Shown here one piece after another: positions 9,353 through 29,286 of a stretch of 46,682 nt of DNA. The notes beneath the pieces are model-generated. The model saw only the letters and a program-made list of their open reading frames with translations, did not search any database and was not told the DNA's origin. The stretch is from positions 1 to 46,682 of the forward strand of contig JAAYVC010000027.1 of the NCBI GenBank assembly GCA_012517375.1, given 5' to 3'. This stretch comes from a bacterium. GTDB taxonomy: Bacteria; Hydrothermota; Tepidihabitantia; B3-TA06. The translations under genes and the position numbers were made by a program. How positions within the stretch are numbered: position 1 is the stretch's first letter; each line of letters begins with the position of its first letter.

Positions 9353-9381
9353 TTGACACCCGCAAACAGCGGGCATATACT
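9353..9381 (+). promoter_or_regulatory. promoter of the histidine kinase operon, with inverted repeat in the spacer
   Basis: TTGACA-N17-TATACT. The spacer holds an inverted repeat, CCCGC-AAACA-GCGGG (9359-9373), placed where a bound repressor would block polymerase. The leader to the ATG is about 90 nt. Confidence 0.75.
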
Positions 9382-9478
9382 ATCTCTAATAGCATCAGGA
9401 AGAGTGTATTGAATCCGGACATCGGTTGCATAAGATACAGAAGTTGGACTTATACCTGAAAGGAGGGTACGAAGTCGA

Positions 9479-12400
9479 ATGGCGAGAAACCCCGCAAGGA
9501 CTCTTGTAAAAGAGCCTGATTTTGAAACCCAGAAAAAGGAGGGTTTCTTCCCGAGACTGGTTCAGAATTTTTTTTTCTGGGGTTTTATAGGCGGAATAGT
9601 CACATGGTTTATAGGGGCCTGGGCCGAGTCGCTGTTCTTCATGCACAACAGTTATTTTTACCAGTTCTTCAATCCATCGAGCTACACTTTGATAGTAAGA
9701 ATAGTGGTTTCGCTCGTATTTGTCTTCCTGGGTTCGATGGTGGAGCTTGCGCTCAAGCGCTACCGCCGGGTACAGGCGCGCAGGGCTAAGGAACTCAGCG
9801 CGCTTTTCGAGACGAGTGCCGCGGTTTCGTCCATCCTCAACGAGTCCGAGCTCTACGAGCTGATAGTCGAAAAAGTGAGCAAGCTCATCGAATCGGACGG
9901 CTGCATCGTTTTCGGCTACGACAGCGAAAAGAAGGAACTTGCGCCAAGGGCGACGAGCCTTAAGCTCTATCAAAGCCAGATAATGAAAGCAAACATTCCA
10001 TTAGGTCAGGGTATAACCGGCCGCGCCGCACTCGAACGCCGGCCCATACTCGCCAACAACACGCATCTTGACCCTAATGCCAGAAGGATGCCAGGCACGC
10101 CCGAGGAGCCTACCTGCATCCTTGCCGCCCCCCTGATATCGGGAGACGAACTCCTGGGCTGCATGAGCGTCCTGCGGCTGAGTGAACGCGAATTCAAGAC
10201 GCAGGATCTCGAGCTTTTAAGTCTCTTTGCGAGTCAGGCATCCGAGGCTGCATACCGTTCAAGGCTTTTTTCAAGATTCCTCGAATCCGAAGAGCGCTTC
10301 CTGAGATTTGAATCTGCAGTAACGGACGTTATATACCGCTACGATAACGTCCGAAAAGAGTACGACTTCATATCGCCTTCTCTAGAGATGCTCACAGGCT
10401 ACACTATGGAGGACGTAAAAGAACATCAGACGGATTTCTGGGAAAACCTTATCTACAAAGACGATTCGGCAAGGGTAAGGAAGGCTTATGCGGACTTTCA
10501 GGCTAGAGACGGTGATAGTTCATACAATCTTGAATACAGGATAGTGCGCAGGTCGGGCGAGGTGATTTGCGTCAACGAGCGCGGTAACTTCGAGACGGAC
10601 CATGAGGGCAGGATAACAAGCTTCAATGGCGTGGTGCGCGATGTTACCGAGCAAAGAAGAGCGGAGAAACAGCGCAGCATCAAGGCGCGGCTGCAGGAGC
10701 GGCTCAGGCAAACCAAGACGATAGCCGATTGCCTTAGGCTGGGCTGCGAGGCCGTTCGGGATGCAGGGCTCTTCAAACGCGCGGTGTTCACAACAAAAAA
10801 CGAAAAAGGCGAGACGACCAATGTAGGCTACGTCGGCGTAGACCCAACGCTCGTAGAGGAGATGAGCAGGAAGCCTCCGGCATCGAAAGAAGTGTTCGAA
10901 AAAATTCTTCGGGAGGAGTTCAGGATAAGCAATTCCTACTTTGTACCCCAGGAGTCCGGCGTAAGCAAGCTCATCGACGATTCAGGCAGGTACATTCCGC
11001 AAAATGAATCCGCGGGCGAGGGCGAGGATGCCTGGCGTCCGGGCGACGAGCTTCTTGTGCCAATGTTGTCGATGGATGGAAACGTCGAGAGTTTTCTTTC
11101 CGTCGATACTCCATACGCAGGCAAGAGGCCTGAAAGGAATGTCATTCTCTATCTCGAAGACATAACCGACATGGTGGCAAGGCAGATACACGAGTTAGAG
11201 AATCTTGCCGCACTCCGCGAATCTGAGGAGCGCTACAGGCAATTTACGGAACGTGCAATGGTAGGGGTCTACATCTATTCTGCAGACCGCTTTCTGTACG
11301 TTAACCCGGAGATGGAGAAAATCCTCGGCTATTCGCGCGAGGAGTTGCTCGGTATGAACCCGTGGGAACTCGTTCTGAGGGAGGATATTGAGGGTCCGCT
11401 AAGGCAGAGGGACGAAGCAAAGGCGAGGGGTGAAAAGGTTCCGCCGAGCTACGAGATGCGAGTGAGGCGCAAGAGCGGCGAGACTGCGGTGCTCGAGGTC
11501 AAATCGGACAGCATAGTCTATCTTGGGATTGAAGCAATGTTAGGCAACTGCGTCGACATCACGGAGCGCAAAAGGGTTGAGGAGGCTCTCAGGGCGTCGG
11601 AAGAACTCAACAGGGCAATCGTGGAGCGCTCTCCTTTAGGGGTTTCAATGCGCGACACTAAGGGCAGCCTTATCAGCGTCAATGAATCATGGAAGAAGAT
11701 ATGGGCGATTCCTGCTGACGAGCTTGAATTGGATATTAAAAGGCCGAGGGAGCGCCTTGAATTCGACGAAAGGGACGACTATCTGAAGGAATGGCAGGAT
11801 GATGTAAGGAAGATATATAGCGAAGGGGGCTACCTGCATATCCCTGAAGTAAAAGTCCTTAAGCCGCGGCCCGGAGGCGCGGAGTGGGTGTCGCATCACT
11901 TTTACGCATTAAAGAACCCGCAAGGCGGCGTTCGACTCGTGGTGGTGCTTACAGAAGATATCACCGAACACAAGAAGGCGGAGGATGCGTTGGTAGATTC
12001 CGAGGAGCGATACCGCAGTCTTACTGAAAAAGCGCTTGTGGGCGTCTACATCTTCAGTCAGGACAACAAGTTCTTGTACGCCAACCCCGCGGTCGAAAAG
12101 ATATTCGGCTACACCGAGAAGGAGCTCGCCGCGATGCGCGACCCCTGGGGGATAGTCCTTGCAGAGGACATGGAAAAAGTAGTCGAAAAGAGGGCAAGGG
12201 ATATCCGTGACGGCAAAGAGGTCTCGCCAAGCTACGAACTCAGGATAAGGCGCAAAAACGGCGAGATAGCAGTCATAGAGATTAAATCGCACCCCATTAA
12301 CTTCAAGAACAAGCCGGCATATCTAGTCAACTGCATCGATGTGACCGAACGAAAGAGGGCTGAGGAGGCGCTCAGCCGCGAGCACACAGCTTTCAGGATA

Positions 12401-15091
12401 ATCGCAGAGGCATCCATTCACTCCGAGGATATCGCAGGACTCTGCCAGAGCGTGATATCCGGTCTCGTAGAAGCCCTTGGTTTCGACGCGGCGACGTTCA
12501 GAACCTACGACGCGGAGGAGCGGATACTCAATCTTGTTTCGCACGTAGGCCTGCGCGAAGAGGAGAAGAAGGAGATAGCGTATCTTCAGTCGATAGACGA
12601 TAAGCGATTTGTGGCTGCTCTGACCGCGCGATCGCGCAAGCCTTTAATAGCGCCCGACGTTCACGAAGAAAAAATTCTCAAGCCGTACATGGATAGACTC
12701 CGGATATTCAGTGAACGTTCGCTTATCTCCTGGCCCGTATCCGGAGGCAAGGGAAACCTCCTCGGCGTGCTGCACCTGTGGGCAAGGAGGCGCGTGGATA
12801 TTTCATCTGCCGACAAGAGCTTTTTCGAAAGAGTCAGCGGCATGTTTGCAGCAGTCCTGGAACGCAAGCAGGCCGAGGACGCGCAGAGGGAATCGGAGGA
12901 GCGTTACAGGGCATTCACCGAAGAGGCGATGGTGGGCGTCTATATCTACCGCGACGGCCGGTTTCTGTTCGTAAACAAAGAGATGGAGAAGATTACGGGC
13001 TACTCTAAAGAAGAACTCATCAAGAATCCCCCTGACATCCTGGTGCTGCCCGAGGAGGAGCCATTTCTCAAGTCCAGGGAGGACGCCCAGAAAAAGGGCA
13101 AGCCTGTTCCCTCCCAGTACACGATGCATATAAGAAGAGCCGACGGACGCATAGCGATTCTTGAACTCAGAACAAGACCCGTTATCTACGAGGGAACAAT
13201 GGCTTTTTTAGGCAACTGCATAGATGTGACTGAGATCCGCAAGGTTCAGGAGGCGCTCAGCGAATCCGAGGAGCGCTACAGGGTACTTACCGAAGAGGCG
13301 ATGATGGGCATATACGTGGCGAGCGGCGACCGGTTCCTTTTCGTCAATCCTGCGATGGAGAAGATTACGGGCTATTCGAGAGAGGAGCTCATGGACATGG
13401 AAACAAGCGAAATAATAATGGCCGAGGACATTGAGATGATAAAGGAGAGAAAAAAGCGTCGCAAACCGGGAGACCCTGACCAGTACAACATGAACATAAA
13501 AAGAAAGGATGGAAGCAAGGCAGTGCTCGAAGTAAGAACCAGGCCTTTGTCGCGAGAAGACAACGAAAGGGTTTTTCTGGGAAACTGTATTGATGTCACG
13601 GAGCTTGTCATGCAAAGGGTGCAGATTGAGCGCGCCAAACAGGAATGGGAGAGGACCTTCGATTCGATATCGGATCTTGTAATGATACTGGATAGCAGGC
13701 AGAGGATAATAAGAGCCAACAGGGCTGTTTCAGAGTACGCAGGAACCTGGTTCAACAAAATAATAGGAAAGAACTATCTGGAGATTTTTCACCTCTCCGG
13801 CGCCGATGCGCGCAAGAGTATTCCGCTTTTGCGGATAAAATCCAAGTTTCCGGAGTATTTCGAGATAAGGGATCCTCTTAAAAACAAGACTTTTTCCGTC
13901 TCGGTTGCTCCTGTAACCGACAATTCCGGCGACATAGTCGCAAGGGTCTGTGTAGCTCGCGATATTACGGAAATGCGAAGGATAGAGGAGGCGCTCGTCG
14001 AATCCGAGGCGCAGTTCAGGGGTTTTGCTGAAAGCGCACAGGAAATAATATTCAGCCTCAGTCACGACGGCAAGGTGCTCTACATCAACCCGGCAATCAA
14101 AGAAATATTCGATTATGACCCTGAAAGGATAGTGGGCGCCGATCTCAAAGCTATCCTGGATAATTTCGGCGTTTCCGCCACGACCCGCTCGACTCTCACA
14201 GGCAATCTTTTCGATGAGGTTCTCTCCGAGAAGACGGCTCTTTTCGAAATCGAACTGGAGGATTCTCAAAAACGCATTCACGTGCTCGAGATATCTGCGA
14301 AAAGACTCCCGATGCAGATACTCGGCATCGCCCGAGACATCACCAAACGCAAACGAATGGAGGAGCAGCTCGTAAGAGCCTCAAAGCTGGCTTCGATAGG
14401 TGTGCTTGCCGCAGGCATCGCCCATCAGGTGAACAATCCTCTTGCAATAATGCTTGCGACGTCTACGGTTCTCCGCGACCTCATAACCGGAGCAAAGGAT
14501 GTTCCGGAAGCTCTGTCGGACGAAGCGTCGAAGTATCTTGATACGATGGAGATGCAGGTTGAAAGGACTAGAAGGGTTGTTTCAGGTCTTCTCGAGTTTA
14601 CCCAGCCGAAGCGGGGCGAGGTCATTCCTTCGGACGTTAACGGCATACTCGCGGAGGCGCTCGAGCTGCTCGCCGAGCCGCTTGCTTTGCCAGGGCTGGA
14701 TTTCGAGCTTTCGTTGGACGAGAATCTGCCGCCGGTCATGGTCGACAGGGTTGCTCTTCAGCAGGCTCTGGTCAATATCATCCAGAACGCCTGTGAAGCC
14801 ATGGATGGCAAGGGGACCATCCTCCTAAAAACCGAAGCGGGAGCTCCGGATACAGTCCGGGTGGTGATAAGCGACAACGGGCCCGGCATCCCTTCGTACA
14901 TAAAGGAGGAGATATTCGAGCCTTTATTCACGACCAAAACCGACAAAAAAGGCACCGGACTTGGCCTGCCCGTGAGCGTGATGCTCCTGGAACGTTTCGG
15001 AGGAAGCATACGTCTAGAGGATACTCAAGGCGGAGGAGCGACTTTTATTGTGGAAATCCCTGTTAAAGGAAAGGAGAGCGATGACGACTGA
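9479..15091 (+). CDS. Multi-PAS/GAF hybrid-length sensor histidine kinase
   Basis: The sensor kinase has 1,870 aa. Two membrane helices (about 30-46 and 68-90) leave almost the whole protein in the cytoplasm. In order I see GAF (~102-265), PAS (~275-400), a degenerate GAF-like region (~405-575), PAS (~580-700), PAS (~705-835), PAS (~840-960), GAF (~965-1135), PAS (~1140-1255), PAS (~1260-1375), PAS (~1390-1500) and PAS (~1510-1625). A HisKA dimerisation domain then carries His1649 in GIAHQVNNPL. The HATPase ends the protein, with N box QNACEAM, G1 DNGPGIP, F box FEPLFTTK and G2 KGTGLGL. All catalytic motifs are present. Four of the PAS copies begin with the same SEERYR...VGVYIY block. The ATG is preceded by AAAGGAGGG at a rather long 11 nt. 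The stop overlaps the next start by 11 bp, so kinase and regulator form one translationally coupled pair. Confidence 0.93.
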   Translation: MARNPARTLVKEPDFETQKKEGFFPRLVQNFFFWGFIGGIVTWFIGAWAESLFFMHNSYFYQFFNPSSYTLIVRIVVSLVFVFLGSMVELALKRYRRVQARRAKELSALFETSAAVSSILNESELYELIVEKVSKLIESDGCIVFGYDSEKKELAPRATSLKLYQSQIMKANIPLGQGITGRAALERRPILANNTHLDPNARRMPGTPEEPTCILAAPLISGDELLGCMSVLRLSEREFKTQDLELLSLFASQASEAAYRSRLFSRFLESEERFLRFESAVTDVIYRYDNVRKEYDFISPSLEMLTGYTMEDVKEHQTDFWENLIYKDDSARVRKAYADFQARDGDSSYNLEYRIVRRSGEVICVNERGNFETDHEGRITSFNGVVRDVTEQRRAEKQRSIKARLQERLRQTKTIADCLRLGCEAVRDAGLFKRAVFTTKNEKGETTNVGYVGVDPTLVEEMSRKPPASKEVFEKILREEFRISNSYFVPQESGVSKLIDDSGRYIPQNESAGEGEDAWRPGDELLVPMLSMDGNVESFLSVDTPYAGKRPERNVILYLEDITDMVARQIHELENLAALRESEERYRQFTERAMVGVYIYSADRFLYVNPEMEKILGYSREELLGMNPWELVLREDIEGPLRQRDEAKARGEKVPPSYEMRVRRKSGETAVLEVKSDSIVYLGIEAMLGNCVDITERKRVEEALRASEELNRAIVERSPLGVSMRDTKGSLISVNESWKKIWAIPADELELDIKRPRERLEFDERDDYLKEWQDDVRKIYSEGGYLHIPEVKVLKPRPGGAEWVSHHFYALKNPQGGVRLVVVLTEDITEHKKAEDALVDSEERYRSLTEKALVGVYIFSQDNKFLYANPAVEKIFGYTEKELAAMRDPWGIVLAEDMEKVVEKRARDIRDGKEVSPSYELRIRRKNGEIAVIEIKSHPINFKNKPAYLVNCIDVTERKRAEEALSREHTAFRIIAEASIHSEDIAGLCQSVISGLVEALGFDAATFRTYDAEERILNLVSHVGLREEEKKEIAYLQSIDDKRFVAALTARSRKPLIAPDVHEEKILKPYMDRLRIFSERSLISWPVSGGKGNLLGVLHLWARRRVDISSADKSFFERVSGMFAAVLERKQAEDAQRESEERYRAFTEEAMVGVYIYRDGRFLFVNKEMEKITGYSKEELIKNPPDILVLPEEEPFLKSREDAQKKGKPVPSQYTMHIRRADGRIAILELRTRPVIYEGTMAFLGNCIDVTEIRKVQEALSESEERYRVLTEEAMMGIYVASGDRFLFVNPAMEKITGYSREELMDMETSEIIMAEDIEMIKERKKRRKPGDPDQYNMNIKRKDGSKAVLEVRTRPLSREDNERVFLGNCIDVTELVMQRVQIERAKQEWERTFDSISDLVMILDSRQRIIRANRAVSEYAGTWFNKIIGKNYLEIFHLSGADARKSIPLLRIKSKFPEYFEIRDPLKNKTFSVSVAPVTDNSGDIVARVCVARDITEMRRIEEALVESEAQFRGFAESAQEIIFSLSHDGKVLYINPAIKEIFDYDPERIVGADLKAILDNFGVSATTRSTLTGNLFDEVLSEKTALFEIELEDSQKRIHVLEISAKRLPMQILGIARDITKRKRMEEQLVRASKLASIGVLAAGIAHQVNNPLAIMLATSTVLRDLITGAKDVPEALSDEASKYLDTMEMQVERTRRVVSGLLEFTQPKRGEVIPSDVNGILAEALELLAEPLALPGLDFELSLDENLPPVMVDRVALQQALVNIIQNACEAMDGKGTILLKTEAGAPDTVRVVISDNGPGIPSYIKEEIFEPLFTTKTDKKGTGLGLPVSVMLLERFGGSIRLEDTQGGGATFIVEIPVKGKESDDD

Positions 15092-16511: not shown

Positions 16512-16570
16512 TGTACTGAAACAGTACAAAAAGATCCCGGGAAACTGCATATTTGTACTGATTTCGTACA
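16512..16570 (+). promoter_or_regulatory. two palindromic upstream activator sites
   Basis: TGTACTGAAACAGTACA (16512-16528) has perfect 7-bp arms. TGTACTGATTTCGTACA (16554-16570) has perfect 5-bp outer arms and the same left half. Their centres are 42 bp apart, four helical turns. They lie about 100-160 bp before the predicted start of the sigma-54 promoter, the normal place for NtrC-type activator sites. Confidence 0.75.
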
Positions 16571-16644
16571 GCGTGTGAACTCTATCCTGAGAACGCATTT
16601 CTATTAAGTTCAATAAAAAAGCAACTTAATGTTAATGTTCCTCC

Positions 16645-16659
16645 TGGCATGGAACTTGC
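16645..16659 (+). promoter_or_regulatory. sigma-54 promoter
   Basis: TGGCATGGAACTTGC matches the -24/-12 consensus TGGCACG-N4-TTGC, with GG and GC exactly 10 bp apart. Transcription should start near 16671 and read the receiver-PATAN gene. Confidence 0.8.
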
Positions 16660-16699
16660 TATCAAAAAAAACGCGAGTTTGTGTTGAGCGGTACAGGCA

Positions 16700-16786
16700 G
16701 TGTCTAAGGGTAGACACACCAACCTGAGAGAGTGGCAGGGGGGTGAGGGCGAAAGGCTTGCAAGCAAATACTCTTTGGAGTGCACT
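16700..16786 (+). promoter_or_regulatory. structured 5' leader of the receiver-PATAN gene
   Basis: The leader begins with GTGTCTA-AGGG-TAGACAC, a perfect 7-bp hairpin. It also holds the palindrome GCTTGCAAGC and a small ACTC-TTTG-GAGT hairpin that includes the Shine-Dalgarno GGAG. The frame is open through it, so a GTG at 16700 could extend the protein, but that GTG has no ribosome site and would form part of a hairpin. Confidence 0.4.
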
Positions 16787-17506
16787 TTGGATAAAACTAG
16801 TAAAAAGATTTTATTTGTTGATGATGAGAGTGAATTCGCCGTAATGATGAGCAAGGTCCTTGATTTGCGGGGTTTTTTTGTTCAAACCGCGAATTCAGGC
16901 GCTCACGCCCTCAAAGCATACTCGTCCCAAGAATACGATCTTGTTGTTACCGATCTTAGCATGCCTGGCATGGACGGCATTGAGTTGGTGCGCGAGATCC
17001 GGAAGATGAACCCCTCACAACGAATAATAATCATAACGGGCTTTCCTTCGCAGATGTCTCAAAGGCAGGCTTTCAAGCTCGGTACAATCAATTACATCGT
17101 AAAACCCTTTTCAATCAACAGATTTCTTGAGGTTGTGGCCGAGGCGCTTGAGGAGGAGGACGAGGACGGTCTTGTAGGCCCAATAAGGCTGAAATGCGAG
17201 GATTTGATCCAGATGTACGCACTGGGAGCCAAGAACATAGTCATCGAGATCATGAACGCCCAGAACGGCGACATGGGCAGGGTGTACATAGAAAAAGGCA
17301 AGGTCGTTCATGCCGAAGTTAACAAGTTGAAGGGAGAGCACGCCTTTTACGAGATACAATCATGGAATTCAGGAATCTTCAGGACAGAGGCGCTCAGGGG
17401 TCGGATTCCGCACACGATAGACCGCAGCCCGGACGCCTTGATTCTCGAGGCTGCGCGCAGATGCGACGAAAAACCCGATTCGCGGGTGAGGCTTGCAAAA
17501 AAGTAG
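16787..17506 (+). CDS. Receiver-PATAN (DUF4388) two-domain response regulator
   Basis: The protein has 239 aa. Residues 6-120 are a CheY-like receiver with FVDDE, Asp56 in VVTDLSMPGMDG, the Thr in IIITGF and Lys in YIVKPF. Residues ~135-240 are a PATAN/DUF4388 domain (GDMGRVYIEKGKVVHAE, then GEHAFYEIQSWNSGIFR). PATAN domains occur in PatA-type cyanobacterial regulators and in surface-motility signalling; they are thought to be protein-binding and do not bind DNA. The TTG start is chosen because GGAG lies six bases upstream and the receiver begins five residues later. It is the first gene after the sigma-54 promoter, so it is likely the direct output of the kinase/NtrC pair. Confidence 0.8.
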   Translation: MDKTSKKILFVDDESEFAVMMSKVLDLRGFFVQTANSGAHALKAYSSQEYDLVVTDLSMPGMDGIELVREIRKMNPSQRIIIITGFPSQMSQRQAFKLGTINYIVKPFSINRFLEVVAEALEEEDEDGLVGPIRLKCEDLIQMYALGAKNIVIEIMNAQNGDMGRVYIEKGKVVHAEVNKLKGEHAFYEIQSWNSGIFRTEALRGRIPHTIDRSPDALILEAARRCDEKPDSRVRLAKK

Positions 17507-24006: not shown

Positions 24007-24103
24007 AACTGTCAATTTTAGGTTGCAGTTTTTTGTGCCGTTCATTAAGTTTCCTTTTTATTTAATCTTAAAAAAGCGCAACTGTCTCTGAAAAGTGACA
24101 GTT
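24007..24103 (-). promoter_or_regulatory. two palindromic activator sites for the sigma-54 promoter
   Basis: AACTGTC-N10-GACAGTT (24080-24103) is perfect. AACTGTC-N10-TGCAGTT (24007-24030) has the same left arm and five matching bases on the right. The longer shared word CGCAACTGTC recurs 73 bp apart (seven helical turns). Both lie 100-190 bp upstream of the sigma-54 promoter, as expected for an activator of this class; the upper one overlaps the end of the activator gene. Confidence 0.65.
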
Positions 24104-27100
24104 ATGAAGTGATGGGTCGGATTATATTATAACGCGAGATGAGTCTTGAAAGATGCTGTCTTGAAATATTCAATTTTTTTGCTGCGCGGCTTACGTTGCC
24201 TCGGGTTTCGAGAAGGGTGCGTTTTATCAGCTCCTCCTCTTCAATCCTCTTTGCGTCCTTTAGAGTTTTGGTCTCAAATGGGACTGAAGGAAAGAACCTC
24301 TGGTCAAGAAGGTCTTTGGTTATTTTCTTCCCGCGTACGAGGATAGCGGCCCTTTCGAGTACGTTAGCAAGCTCTCTTATATTGCCTGGCCACGGATAAT
24401 CAAGAAAAGCCTGCATTACTTCATCGCTCACTTCGGTCACGGATTTGTTTAGTTCAAAAGAAGATTTCTTCAAGAAATGATTCACGAGTTCCCGGATATC
24501 CTCCTTGCGCTCCCTTAAGGGCGGGATATAAAGCTTGAAAGTATTGATTCGATAATACAAATCCTCTCTGAAACGTCCTTCACGCGTCTCAACCTCCAGG
24601 TTTTTATTCGTAGCGAAAATGAATCTGATGTTTATCCTGCGCTTAGACGATTCGCCAAGCCTGCGAAGGACTCTTTCCTCAATAACCTCAAGAAGCTTTG
24701 TCTGCATGAAGGATGAAATGTTGGTTATTTCGTCCAGAAAGACGGTTGATCCGTCCGCCGCCTCTAAGAGGCCTATCCTGTCTTCAGTTGCGCCGGTAAA
24801 AGCGCCCTTCCTGTGGCCGAAGAGCTCGGCCGCGAAAAGATTCTCAGGGAATATTCCGCAGTTGATGGAGCAGAACTCACGGCCGTGACGCAGGCTTCTA
24901 TCGTGTATGAGTTTCGCCATTACGCCCTTGCCGGTGCCCGTTTCGCCCTCGAGCAGAACGTTCGCCTCGGAACGCGCTGCACGTTCTATCTGACTATACA
25001 ACTCTCTTGTCGCTGGGGAGTTACCGAATACTACTCCGGACTTTTCCCATTTTTTCCTTTCGCGCGAGAGTCTTATCTCCTCACGCATTTTGTTGAATTC
25101 AGAGGATTTGTCGATTGTAGCTGCAAGTATGTTGCCCAGCGACTCAAAATAGGTAGTGTTATCGGGATTAAAAAGGCCAGGTTTTGTGCTGTCAAGATAT
25201 ATTGTTCCCAGGAGCTTTGAGCTAGTTTTCAGGGGGATACAAAGAATGGAACGGATTTCATTCAACAGGATGCTTTTTGAACGGTTGAAGCGCCAGTCTG
25301 TTGTTGCATCAGCCGTGTATATGGGTTCAAGACCCTGGGTAATCTGGCGCATAACGGTTTCCGAAAGACGTCTTGCCTCGTTGCGGGAAGGCGTCTCTGT
25401 ATGCTTGGATGCAACGGCGTATAGCTTGGAATCTTCATGCAGAAAGATGACGCCTCTCGCCGCAGATGTAAGTTCGAGGAGTACGGAAAGAACCTGAATC
25501 ATGAAATCTTCTTCCCCTAATCGGTAGTTCAAGAGTTCGCTTATGCGCCGCAAGCCTTCCAGATACAGGGGAGCAAGACCGGTCTGCTCGCGCCAGGCCG
25601 AGAAGTTCTGGGACTTGAAAGCTTCTATTTTTCTGAGTTCAGGCAATGCGCCCAGTCTTTCAAAAACAGCCTTGGAGTCCTCAAGCGCTGCTTGCGCCTC
25701 ATCCGAATACCCGTTCCTTTCAAAAAGCACTTTCGAGAGCATTAAAAGGGAGAGTCCTTCCTGGTACGTGTTCTCCTGGAGCTTGAGCAGTTCGATACTC
25801 TTACGCAACAAACTTATTGCGTTTGCGTAGTCTTTTGAATGACGGTATGCAATAGCTTCCAACCGCAATATCTCGCCCCTGGAACCTTCAAAACCCGATG
25901 TATCCATCTTCGAAGATATGTGTTTGATAATCGAGAGCGCTTTTTCGATGTCACCCTCCGCAAGCAGGAGTTCGCATTCAAGAATAGAAATTTCAAAAAG
26001 ATAAAATAAGCTTTGTTTTTCTGGAAGATCGGAGAATTTCCCGCATATAATTTCTCTCGCGGTATCCAAATCTCCTTTGTCGAGAGCCATGCGGCATTTA
26101 AGAGTGAGTATCCCAAGTTCGGCGCCGGGATAGCGTCTCTCGCTAGTAAGCAGGGAAGCTCTTTGAAGGAGCCTTGTCGCCCATTGTATTTTTCCCTGCA
26201 TCCGGCACAGATCGGCCCAGTTGATTAATACGTAAGGTTTGTGTTGAGAGTCTTTTCTTGCAGCAATTGTTTTCCATAACTCGAGATACCCATCCCATCC
26301 TGAGCGCCATTCTCCCACAAGTGAAGAAATATCTGCATTAAGAAGCTTCAGCTCGATAACATTTTCGTCGATTCCATTCTCAGCCATAAGTTCAAGAGCT
26401 TGCTGAACGTAACTTTTCGCTTTCCTGCGCATTCCCCTGTAAAAAGAAATCTTTGCCTGAAGACGCAGGATCGTTGAGTTGAATCTTGCATCACCTGCAA
26501 GCCGGGCGAATTCGCTAGCGTGTTCAATGTACTCTCCAGCTTCTTTAAGCCTGCCTGACGCCATAAGAGTCTCTGATGCAAGGGATGACGCCTGAAAAGC
26601 TATCACCCATTCGTTTCTATTTCCCGCTTCCCCTGTTACAACCTTCACGTATTCCAGGGCTTCTTCGTTTTTTGACTGCTGAAAAAGAACCCAGGCGAGC
26701 ATATACGCATTTCTTAAATAAACCTCCGATTTCGCGTCCGACAAATTGAGCGCTCTTTTGAAGACTTCTTCGGCGTATTCATATTTACCCAGCTTGAGTT
26801 TGTTCCATCCTCTTGCTGAAAGAATCTCTTCCAGAAATCTCGAGCGCGTTCCTTCGAGTTTCGTTTCCGCGGCATCAACAAGCTCTTCCGAACGGTCAAT
26901 TTCTCCTACCCGCTGATAGGCGAGACCAAGAAGGAGTAGTATTTTCGCCTCCTCCTCTCTTTCTCCTCCAGCGAGTTCAAGGGCTCGATTGTAGTAAGCC
27001 TTTGAGGAAGCTATGTCTTTTTTGAGATCGGATATTCTCCCGAGCTCAAGGAATACATCCTTCCTCTCCAAACCGGAGAGATCGTATTCAAGAAGCCTTT

Positions 27101-29096
27101 CAAGACACTTTTGGGCTTTTTGCAGGTTCTCTAGAGCAATAAACCTCTTTGAAGCTTCTTTTAAATAGAACTTCGCTTTCTTTTTATCGCCGGCAAGAGA
27201 AAAGAGAATTGACAGCATTTCAAGATATGAATCGTCCCATTTTTCAATATCGTGATTCCAGAATCTGCAGGCTGTTTCCTCAATTGATTGACCGAGTGTT
27301 TGAGAAAGCGATTTCTTCCTCTCTATACTCATATTCTCGGAAAAGTAGCTTCTTACGAGCGAGTTTTCTATTCCGTAGTATAAATCCTCCTTCCTTCGAA
27401 CGGAGATTGCCAGGCCCTTATCCGCCAGCATCTTTAATCGAAACATGAATTCATCGGCGGAGTCAATCCTCTTCAGAGAATCCAGAGGAACAAATGAATC
27501 GACGAGCGACAAAGATTCAATCAGAGTAATTGATCCTTTTGCTGCTTCCCTTATCTTCTCTTCAAGCAAGGTTCCCATCCTTTTCGAGATGGAATAGTCG
27601 GAGCCCGGTTCCCTGAAGCGCCAGATTTCCTCGTACTTAAGCCATCCATCTTTCCACAAGAGTTCTATGAGTTCTACGATTGCTGCGGGATTTCCCTGAC
27701 TTGCTGAGTACAAAGTGTTTGCCAGCTCTTTTGATGAATCGAGCGTCGGGAATGTCCTGGATACCATCTCAAGAATGCTCATCTCGTCGAGTGGTTCCAG
27801 AAGCAGAGTTTTCTTCTCAGGTGAATCCCTGCCCCAGCCGGATATAAGCAGCCCAACTTTTCCGTCAAGCAATCTCATCAAATTATGGAAGACTTCCCTT
27901 TCAAAGTCTGTCAGTTCGTCCGAAACGTCGATGACAAGGGAATCTATGTTGTTTTTTAAGATCTGCGCCGCAAATCTGCGGCTCAGCTCTTCCGCGCTAT
28001 GCTTAGCTACTCTTGACTCGGCGTCCAGCCCAAGGGATGATGCAAGATTCTCGATTATCGATATAAAGGCGCCTTTTCCGCTGATAAGAAGAGTCTTCAT
28101 ATTGTTAACGAAGGCTCTGAATCTTAACTCCTTTATGAATCTTGTCTTGCCGGAACCCCTGTCTCCTTCAAGAAAAATAACATCCTTATCGTCCGAAAGC
28201 GCCTTAAGAGCCATGTCGAGTTCCCGCGTTCTGCCGACAAAACAAGGAGCAGGCGCAAAAAGCGGCTCTTCTGCAACTACGGATTCATTGCTCCTCAGAA
28301 ACCGCGAAAGAATCGATATGGATTCTCTCGCCGAAGGCCTTATTGCAGGTTCAGGCTCAAGAAATCTCAATACCAGTTCTTCAAGTTCGGCGGGGATTTT
28401 TAAGTCGCCGGTCTGTATGGTTTGCGGGCGTTTCGCTTTAGCGCGGGCAATCGACCAGGGCGACTCTTTTTCCCACAAACGGCTAGCGGAAAGAGTTTCA
28501 TAAGCCAGGACCCCTAAGGAGTAGATATCGGAAGAAGGCGTTATTCCCTGTCCGACAAACAGTTCGGGAGCAACGTAGTCGAGAGTGCCTCTCGGTCTGT
28601 TCGAAGGATCAAGGTAGTAGTCCTCCGCAAACCCGAAATCAAGCAGTACGGGTTCTCCGTTGTTCCGGACAAGAATATTTGAGGGCTTAAGATCGGCGTG
28701 AACGATGCCCTGAGCATGGATGTAGGAAAGAATCGATATTATCTTGCAGAGCAACCTTGAAAATATTTGAATGAATCGTTCATCCCTTGGGATTTGTGAA
28801 AGGTATTCGTCGAAAGCGTTTCCCCTGATAAGCTCCATTGTGAAGAAGGCGGCAGAATCGATAGTCCCGCACTCGTAGACTTTTATAATGCCTTGATGTT
28901 TAAGGCGTTCAAGGATAGAGAACTCTCTTTCAATTCGTCTCGTATAATCGGAGCCTTGAGCTATCTTTACTGCTATCTCTTCTCCCGAACCTTCATTGAC
29001 GGCAGACCAGACCAAGGAATCATACCCCTCTCCCAGCAGTTTGAGCGGTCTTAACCCTCTCTTTATCCAGGCACCAGAATCAATGGCCTTGCTCAT
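24102..29096 (-). CDS. Ser/Thr kinase-ATPase-TPR-GAF-sigma-54 activator fusion
   Basis: The protein has about 1,664 aa. In order: a eukaryote-type kinase (GEGYDSLVW, Lys44, HADLKPSN at 133-140, DFG at 153, APELF); an NTPase with Walker A GDRGSGKT near 312; a long TPR-like helical region (~500-1170); a GAF domain (~1195-1325); a sigma-54 AAA+ domain with Walker A GETGTGKG, the GAFTGA loop near 1430 and Walker B FLDEI; and a Fis-type helix-turn-helix at the end (NVSRAAKKLNISRQHLSRL). In the kinase loop HRD is replaced by HAD, which may alter or lower phosphotransfer. The frame is open upstream of 29096, but a promoter ends 7 nt before this ATG and no ribosome site is present, so I take 29096 as the start of a leaderless mRNA. 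Its target is probably the adjacent sigma-54 promoter. Similar fusions occur in Myxococcus-type bacteria. Confidence 0.9.
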   Translation of the reverse strand: MSKAIDSGAWIKRGLRPLKLLGEGYDSLVWSAVNEGSGEEIAVKIAQGSDYTRRIEREFSILERLKHQGIIKVYECGTIDSAAFFTMELIRGNAFDEYLSQIPRDERFIQIFSRLLCKIISILSYIHAQGIVHADLKPSNILVRNNGEPVLLDFGFAEDYYLDPSNRPRGTLDYVAPELFVGQGITPSSDIYSLGVLAYETLSASRLWEKESPWSIARAKAKRPQTIQTGDLKIPAELEELVLRFLEPEPAIRPSARESISILSRFLRSNESVVAEEPLFAPAPCFVGRTRELDMALKALSDDKDVIFLEGDRGSGKTRFIKELRFRAFVNNMKTLLISGKGAFISIIENLASSLGLDAESRVAKHSAEELSRRFAAQILKNNIDSLVIDVSDELTDFEREVFHNLMRLLDGKVGLLISGWGRDSPEKKTLLLEPLDEMSILEMVSRTFPTLDSSKELANTLYSASQGNPAAIVELIELLWKDGWLKYEEIWRFREPGSDYSISKRMGTLLEEKIREAAKGSITLIESLSLVDSFVPLDSLKRIDSADEFMFRLKMLADKGLAISVRRKEDLYYGIENSLVRSYFSENMSIERKKSLSQTLGQSIEETACRFWNHDIEKWDDSYLEMLSILFSLAGDKKKAKFYLKEASKRFIALENLQKAQKCLERLLEYDLSGLERKDVFLELGRISDLKKDIASSKAYYNRALELAGGEREEEAKILLLLGLAYQRVGEIDRSEELVDAAETKLEGTRSRFLEEILSARGWNKLKLGKYEYAEEVFKRALNLSDAKSEVYLRNAYMLAWVLFQQSKNEEALEYVKVVTGEAGNRNEWVIAFQASSLASETLMASGRLKEAGEYIEHASEFARLAGDARFNSTILRLQAKISFYRGMRRKAKSYVQQALELMAENGIDENVIELKLLNADISSLVGEWRSGWDGYLELWKTIAARKDSQHKPYVLINWADLCRMQGKIQWATRLLQRASLLTSERRYPGAELGILTLKCRMALDKGDLDTAREIICGKFSDLPEKQSLFYLFEISILECELLLAEGDIEKALSIIKHISSKMDTSGFEGSRGEILRLEAIAYRHSKDYANAISLLRKSIELLKLQENTYQEGLSLLMLSKVLFERNGYSDEAQAALEDSKAVFERLGALPELRKIEAFKSQNFSAWREQTGLAPLYLEGLRRISELLNYRLGEEDFMIQVLSVLLELTSAARGVIFLHEDSKLYAVASKHTETPSRNEARRLSETVMRQITQGLEPIYTADATTDWRFNRSKSILLNEIRSILCIPLKTSSKLLGTIYLDSTKPGLFNPDNTTYFESLGNILAATIDKSSEFNKMREEIRLSRERKKWEKSGVVFGNSPATRELYSQIERAARSEANVLLEGETGTGKGVMAKLIHDRSLRHGREFCSINCGIFPENLFAAELFGHRKGAFTGATEDRIGLLEAADGSTVFLDEITNISSFMQTKLLEVIEERVLRRLGESSKRRINIRFIFATNKNLEVETREGRFREDLYYRINTFKLYIPPLRERKEDIRELVNHFLKKSSFELNKSVTEVSDEVMQAFLDYPWPGNIRELANVLERAAILVRGKKITKDLLDQRFFPSVPFETKTLKDAKRIEEEELIKRTLLETRGNVSRAAKKLNISRQHLSRLISRYNIIRPITS

Positions 29097-29103
29097 AGAG
29101 TGT

Positions 29104-29132
29104 AATATAAATGCGACACATCCAAATGTCAA
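29104..29132 (-). promoter_or_regulatory. promoter of the kinase/activator gene, leaderless
   Basis: TTGACA-N17-TATATT on the - strand. The seven bases ACACTCT separate it from the ATG, so transcription should begin at or next to the start codon. The AGGAGGGGG further upstream lies before the -35 box and cannot serve in translation. Confidence 0.7.
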
Positions 29133-29286
29133 CCCCCTCCTGTTATATTTATATCGAATTAAGTTGAAAGTATACTGGAACTTTGTTTGAATGCAGATGA
29201 ATCCGGCGTCTCCGTGAATGTTTGGAAGTTGTTTTTTTAAGTCTGCGAGCAAAATACATAAAACGATTTATTTAGCGCCTGGGTTG

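Follow-up and report, generated by a model that had tools for sequence, protein, structure and literature searches.

The stretch of DNA analysed here, referred to as the window, is 46,682 nt long, and its central feature is a kinase-regulator pair followed by a set of small receiver proteins, all encoded on the plus strand. The histidine kinase P0003 (9479–15091; 1870 aa), identified by Pfam and from its sequence, contains PAS, GAF, HisKA and HATPase domains according to Pfam, and two likely transmembrane helices were recognized by eye at its N terminus. The next frame encodes the response regulator P0001 (15048–16487; likely start, ATG at 15081), in which Pfam identifies a receiver, a sigma-54 AAA+ domain and a Fis-type HTH. 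This is the domain composition of an NtrC-type EBP, and GAFTGA can be read in the AAA+ domain.

The first gene downstream encodes P0002 (16787–17506), with a receiver and a DUF4388 domain that both score above the Pfam curated cut-offs; DUF4388 is the Pfam name for the PATAN region. The likely start is TTG at 16787, preceded by GGAG at 16777–16780; a start at the GTG at 16700 would add an N-terminal extension. A search of the genome contigs with P0002 returned matches that were mostly at the level of the receiver. P0004 (17493–17837), a small protein with no match in a Pfam search, is possibly a diverged stand-alone PATAN-like domain: profile comparison aligns it with a PATAN-type profile at an E value of 0.002 over 61 columns and a probability of just 14%, and a structure model of the protein alone has low confidence (pLDDT 40) and is uninformative. 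P0005 (17884–18765) has a receiver by Pfam and a predicted C-terminal Roadblock/LC7 (MglB-like) domain. By sequence the Roadblock/LC7 match lies under the Pfam curated cut-off (17.4 bits versus 23; E 0.0036). The predicted fold of the C terminus, from a model built from two sequences with pLDDT roughly 70–80 across much of this region, matches MglB (6hjm; target TM about 0.7) and other Roadblock proteins in the PDB at an E value of 8e-8 in Foldseek.

Two other features of the window were observed. A 1716-aa protein encoded on the minus strand (24102–29252) combines a Ser/Thr protein kinase, AAA, TPRs, GAF, a sigma-54 AAA+ domain and a Fis-type HTH, and relatives have open frames of similar length. 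The segment 21795–23252 resembles the large subunit of phage terminase, but weakly (Terminase_6N and 6C score barely above their cut-offs).

Between the end of the P0001 gene at 16487 and the start of P0002 lie, in order, two palindromes and a sigma-54 promoter sequence. UAS1, TGTACTGAAACAGTACA (16512–16528), is centred at about -150 relative to the predicted transcription start, and UAS2, TGTACTGATTTCGTACA (16554–16570), at about -108; both were read directly, re-checked by script and recovered with a site matrix. Their spacing from start to start is 42 bp, or four turns at 10.5 bp per turn, and they occupy the same face of the helix. The -24/-12 box, TGGCATGGAACTTGCT (16645–16660, plus strand), was identified by direct reading, script re-check and pattern search. 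Sigma-54 needs 10 nt between GG and GC; within TGGCATGGAACTTGC, spanning 16645–16659, the two dinucleotides are 10 nt apart, in the TGGCAY...TTGCW context. The predicted transcript begins with a G-rich leader (16661–16786, plus strand). The genome has one copy of rpoN (PF04552, E 1.5e-45, at G000:C120). An earlier, sequence-only reading had described a kinase/NtrC pair, a receiver-PATAN gene as the first gene downstream and, between them, a complete sigma-54 control region. The Pfam assignments agree with both gene identifications, the two palindromes four turns apart proved exact by direct reading and by script, and the textbook GG-N10-GC spacing is indeed present. As judged from the DNA and its relatives, UAS1, UAS2 and the box at 16645–16660 are a real control region, predicted to work as an ordinary NtrC-type switch.

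Palindromy alone is weak evidence for such sites, because eight 17-mers in the window have perfect 7-bp arms. A site matrix was trained on the relatives' sites alone, with those of the window held out. Over all 17-mers of the window it gave scores of 22.5 for UAS1, 22.0 for a further site at 9405–9421, and 21.0 for UAS2; the next score was 10.8, and the best in 30 Markov-randomised windows was 16.2. The box pattern TGGYAY-N5-TTGCT is found once in the window and 27 times in the genome, compared with 2 occurrences of the reversed pattern and 4 of a version whose spacer has one extra base. We therefore reject a chance origin, on the basis of the held-out matrix together with the controls for spacing and reversal. 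All three elements exceed chance, and the relatives supply strong evidence for them.

The comparison included the window genome (G000), two genomes (G001 and G003) from another genus in its family and five genomes of a third genus. The degenerate motif TGTMCKGAWWCMGKACA, at no more than one mismatch, is present in the window genome, G001 and G003, and absent from the five genomes of the third genus. In G001 (C4, C7, C52, C72, where the box is one base off, and C70, with two motif mismatches) and in G003 (C66, and C270 with two copies 19 bp apart) it lies 84–118 bp upstream of sigma-54 boxes. Of the 10 motif sites in the three genomes, 8 have a strict box in the correct orientation at a distance of 60–140 bp, against an expectation of about 0.0008 per site. 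When only the relatives are counted, with one site per promoter, 5/6 have a strict box, and the sixth has a box one base off, TGGCACGGATAATGCT, at 84 bp.

The targets of these promoters in the relatives are small signalling adaptors, like those of the window: SpoIIAA-like tandem arrays (G001:C4 and G001:C52), a STAS-like gene accompanied by one for a receiver (G001:C7 and G003:C270) and a gene for a cNMP-binding protein (G003:C66). The term STAS-like was assigned by eye to the C7/C270 protein, for which Pfam gave no significant match. At two mismatches the motif has many more sites with no known box; their counts exceed those of the control but lie closer to them, so that weaker members of the regulon cannot be named with confidence. 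The motif and its regulon appear to be new in the literature searched. Matches to CGCCCTCCTCCCAC in G002 (C4 and C29) and G004 (C49 and C51) were set aside as unrelated, since by eye they look like coding sequence. One motif match in the window genome (G000:C73:35241-35257; score 19.9) has no sigma-54 box, and the gene downstream of it resembles, by eye, the one in second place in the operon at G003:C66, where both motif and box are present. Tandem V4R/haem-NO-binding-like proteins are encoded at G001:C35 (L255) and G000:C101 (L121); the array at G001:C35 is preceded by a sigma-54 box, and 107 bp upstream lies a sequence that matches the motif weakly.

Two checks named in the sequence-only reading concerned the palindrome elsewhere. 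A search of the 2.54-Mb genome for TGTACTG-N3-CAGTACA with up to two mismatches yielded five sites, UAS1 and UAS2 among them, versus one for the reversed control; none of the other three has a sigma-54 box downstream. Conservation among relatives is mixed: other sigma-54 promoters of G001 and G003 have the palindrome, but the locus with the closest NtrC gene, G001:C6, keeps a downstream box and lacks the palindrome.

The same comparisons bear on whether the palindromes act as DNA at all. They could be hairpins in the NtrC transcript, either a terminator or an RNA-processing signal, and UAS1, whose 7-bp arms are perfect, does score as weakly terminator-like when the minus strand is read. No T run follows the palindromes on the coding strand, however, and copies of the motif recur at a similar distance upstream of unlinked sigma-54 promoters, as expected for the DNA site of a dimeric protein. 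The matrix scores and this recurrence near sigma-54 boxes led to rejection of a hairpin role, which is highly improbable.

The third copy of the motif, TGTATTGAATCCGGACA (9405–9421), was not mentioned in the sequence-only reading and was recovered with both the degenerate pattern and the held-out matrix. It precedes the kinase gene. The kinase-NtrC operon has a sigma-70-type promoter (9353–9381, plus strand; TTGACA-17-TATACT, 11/12 consensus positions), relative to which the site occupies about +17 to +33, and no sigma-54 box was found near it. A site just downstream of a sigma-70-type promoter fits an operator, and autorepression of the kinase-NtrC operon through 9405–9421 is therefore predicted.

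The protein that binds these sites is most simply taken to be P0001, the regulator encoded between them, and we infer as much. It is possible that the UASs are genuine but serve another NtrC-type regulator and that their place behind P0001 is incidental. Several NtrC-type proteins are encoded in the genome, and motif loci in G001 and G003 have no adjoining NtrC gene. Moreover, the nearest relatives of P0001, at G001:C6 (66% identical) and G007:C232 (64%), share its recognition helix, SRSVLYxKL, and lack the motif at their own promoters (G007 has no site at up to one mismatch), so that the sites could be bound by another NtrC-type protein; the NtrC tree did not separate orthologues among the subfamily members. 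Against this, the only three sites in the window genome with at most one mismatch flank exactly this kinase-NtrC pair, a single site preceding the kinase and the other two following the NtrC gene, and EBP genes are commonly co-located with sigma-54 targets (PMC4641369). Use by a different regulator is accordingly quite unlikely.

The sequence-only reading also held that parts of a second phosphorelay appear to be switched on by the first, and here the evidence leads elsewhere. In that version P0002 and P0005 would be phosphorylated by a different, unlinked kinase. Both proteins have receivers, the operon lacks a kinase of its own, and unlinked kinases can possibly phosphorylate receivers. Nevertheless, no other histidine kinase was found beside the operon, which encodes receiver outputs and no second kinase, and a locus in G007 (G007:C219) couples such outputs to a kinase of the P0003 type. 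The C-terminal, catalytic part of that kinase is 58% identical to P0003. Its gene terminates within TAATG and so overlaps, in translational coupling, the first codon of a gene for a receiver-PATAN protein (about 55% to P0002); next comes a gene whose receiver-Roadblock product is 41% identical to P0005. NtrC is absent between kinase and receiver-PATAN gene at this locus. With the kinase directly coupled to the outputs, phosphorylation of the receivers by the same kinase is the simplest reading, and the gene order fits a branched feed-forward output of one relay better than a second relay. A separate second relay is thus unlikely.

The locus as a whole is probably best explained as a P0003-P0001 switch with autorepression and feed-forward outputs. 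The kinase-NtrC operon would be transcribed from the sigma-70 promoter at 9353–9381, and P0003 would phosphorylate P0001. Active P0001 could then bind the in-phase UAS1 and UAS2, loop to sigma-54 polymerase at 16645–16660 and open the promoter of the receiver-PATAN/PATAN-like/receiver-Roadblock operon, while repressing its own operon through the site at 9405–9421. The induced receiver proteins would most likely be phosphorylated by P0003 too, so that the relay would make its own output proteins and then activate them, a coherent feed-forward loop. The phosphotransfer partners in this loop are suggested by gene order.

The window module is one of a series. Twelve genes of the same NtrC subfamily, including that of P0001, occur in the genomes of the family, and the products of the other eleven are 54–66% identical to P0001. 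Most are preceded by a related kinase gene, and for most a sigma-54-type box lies within about 420 bp past the stop codon. The box is strict behind the window gene and at G001:C6, G003:C31, G001:C18, G000:C87, G006:C72 and G007:C220, and looser at G001:C7, G007:C139 and perhaps G001:C80; behind the NtrC genes of G007:C232 and G003:C437 the downstream stretch reaches the end of the contig. The enhancer palindromes vary among the modules. Downstream genes at G000:C87 and G001:C18 encode SpoIIAA-like arrays and STAS-like proteins, with receiver-PATAN also at C87. In the literature searched, the repeated kinase-NtrC-sigma-54 module appears new.

Several of the sister modules contain an RNA element, R1, in which a nearly invariant unpaired CGCCCUCCUCCCAY, resembling an anti-Shine-Dalgarno sequence, precedes a hairpin of 14 pairs, 8 of which show compensatory changes. 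Copies lie at G000:C87:13228-13327 and, in tandem, at G000 C82:14771-14980, in G001 (C7, C18, C70 and C83) and G003 (C270, C284 and C404), and also in G002, G004, G005, G006 and G007 (L128, L129, L130, L142, L218 and L294-L315). R1 is found in 8/8 genomes of the family, and weakly in 1/57 other genomes of the class. It often lies 53–71 nt past a sigma-54 box, and another set of copies stands behind sigma-70-like sequences. A leader peptide (ITPSSHTYPV in one frame) is judged unlikely, because at least one copy (G007C102) has no start codon by eye, conservation extends to third positions and the changes in the hairpin are compensatory. No Rfam family matched R1 at its gathering score; the atoC RNA (RF01733) gave 18.4 and 21.1 bits, under the 50-bit gathering score. 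The literature searched does not mention the atoC RNA and mentions DUF4388 only in an unrelated context. On these searches of Rfam and the literature, R1 appears to be undescribed.

At G000:C87 (L128 about 12080-12380, minus strand) two sigma-54 boxes stand in series behind a sister kinase-NtrC pair, the first preceding R1 and a T-run hairpin and the second a SpoIIAA-like array. R1 at this locus seems to form a small RNA unit of its own under sigma-54. The window leader (16661–16786) has no match in Rfam or to the R1 model. Pairing of the G-rich leader (16671–16830) with the C-rich part of R1 is calculated at -28.1 kcal/mol, as compared with -26.3 for the best 5% of shuffles, and only 2 of 291 window tiles reach an equal score, which makes pairing between the two no more than suggestive.

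A broader proposal, tentative and more doubtful than probable, joins these observations into a lineage-specific, duplicated kinase-NtrC-sigma-54 design together with an RNA that acts on sister Shine-Dalgarno sequences. Some twelve kinase-NtrC pairs, every one followed by a sigma-54 promoter of its own, would produce banks of adaptors of receiver-PATAN, Roadblock, SpoIIAA-like, STAS-like and V4R types. Several of the sigma-54 transcripts would start with R1 (CCCUCCUCCC and the covarying hairpin), which could act on Shine-Dalgarno sequences of sister transcripts, including G-rich leaders like that of the window.

The placing of an EBP gene beside its sigma-54 target is a known and ordinary design. 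Such arrangements are common, for example in Desulfovibrio vulgaris (PMC4641369), where, as in the window, a two-component GAFTGA EBP adjoins a target with UASs about 100 bp upstream of the -24/-12 element, and where some targets are ncRNAs directly downstream of the EBP gene. The window differs in its lineage, its undescribed motif and its receiver-PATAN, PATAN-like and receiver-Roadblock targets. In the cbrA-cbrB-crcZ layout of Pseudomonas (PMC8871633), a sigma-54-dependent unit likewise lies immediately 3' of a kinase and an NtrC-type regulator, and the regulator activates crcZ, an sRNA acting on Crc/Hfq. The window unit, in contrast, is an mRNA for signalling proteins, and the RNA element is found in sister modules such as G000:C87.

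The target proteins also have known counterparts. PixG, PilG and TaxP2 of cyanobacterial phototaxis combine receiver and PATAN (PMC10519157); in the window protein the order is reversed, with the receiver first, and a chemotaxis-type kinase is not linked. Roadblock and receiver proteins together recall the MglB/RomR polarity module of Myxococcus, the modelled C terminus of P0005 resembling MglB structures, but in the window receiver and Roadblock occur in one protein behind a predicted inducible sigma-54 promoter, and MglA is not adjacent. Receiver-PATAN-Roadblock fusions occur in the same genomes (one further case is weaker), and receiver-PATAN proteins with a C-terminal Ras/Arf-type GTPase-like domain were observed at G000:C37 (L330 512-1984, minus strand) and G005:C30 (L012 1486-3057); the match to an Arf/Ras-type GTPase domain has an E value of 0.002, below cut-off. 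These fusions would tie the receiver-PATAN and Roadblock outputs to switching of the MglA/MglB type. The cyanobacterial PATAN domain contacts the pilus motor PilB (PMC10519157). Given outputs of the PATAN and MglB-like Roadblock kinds, our best guess is that the circuit controls cell polarity, gliding or type IV pili.

An uncultured lineage thereby gains a testable transcription circuit, made up of a regulator with its defined enhancer motif, a predicted site of autoregulation and a set of targets. Few studies have dealt with how PATAN and MglB-like proteins are controlled at transcription, and the circuit connects them with an NtrC-type relay; the paralogous modules offer a natural series in which to follow how NtrC specificity diverges. 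R1 may be a new RNA family, and if the broader proposal is true, NtrC-type relays would control the supply of adaptors in this family through both transcription and RNA.
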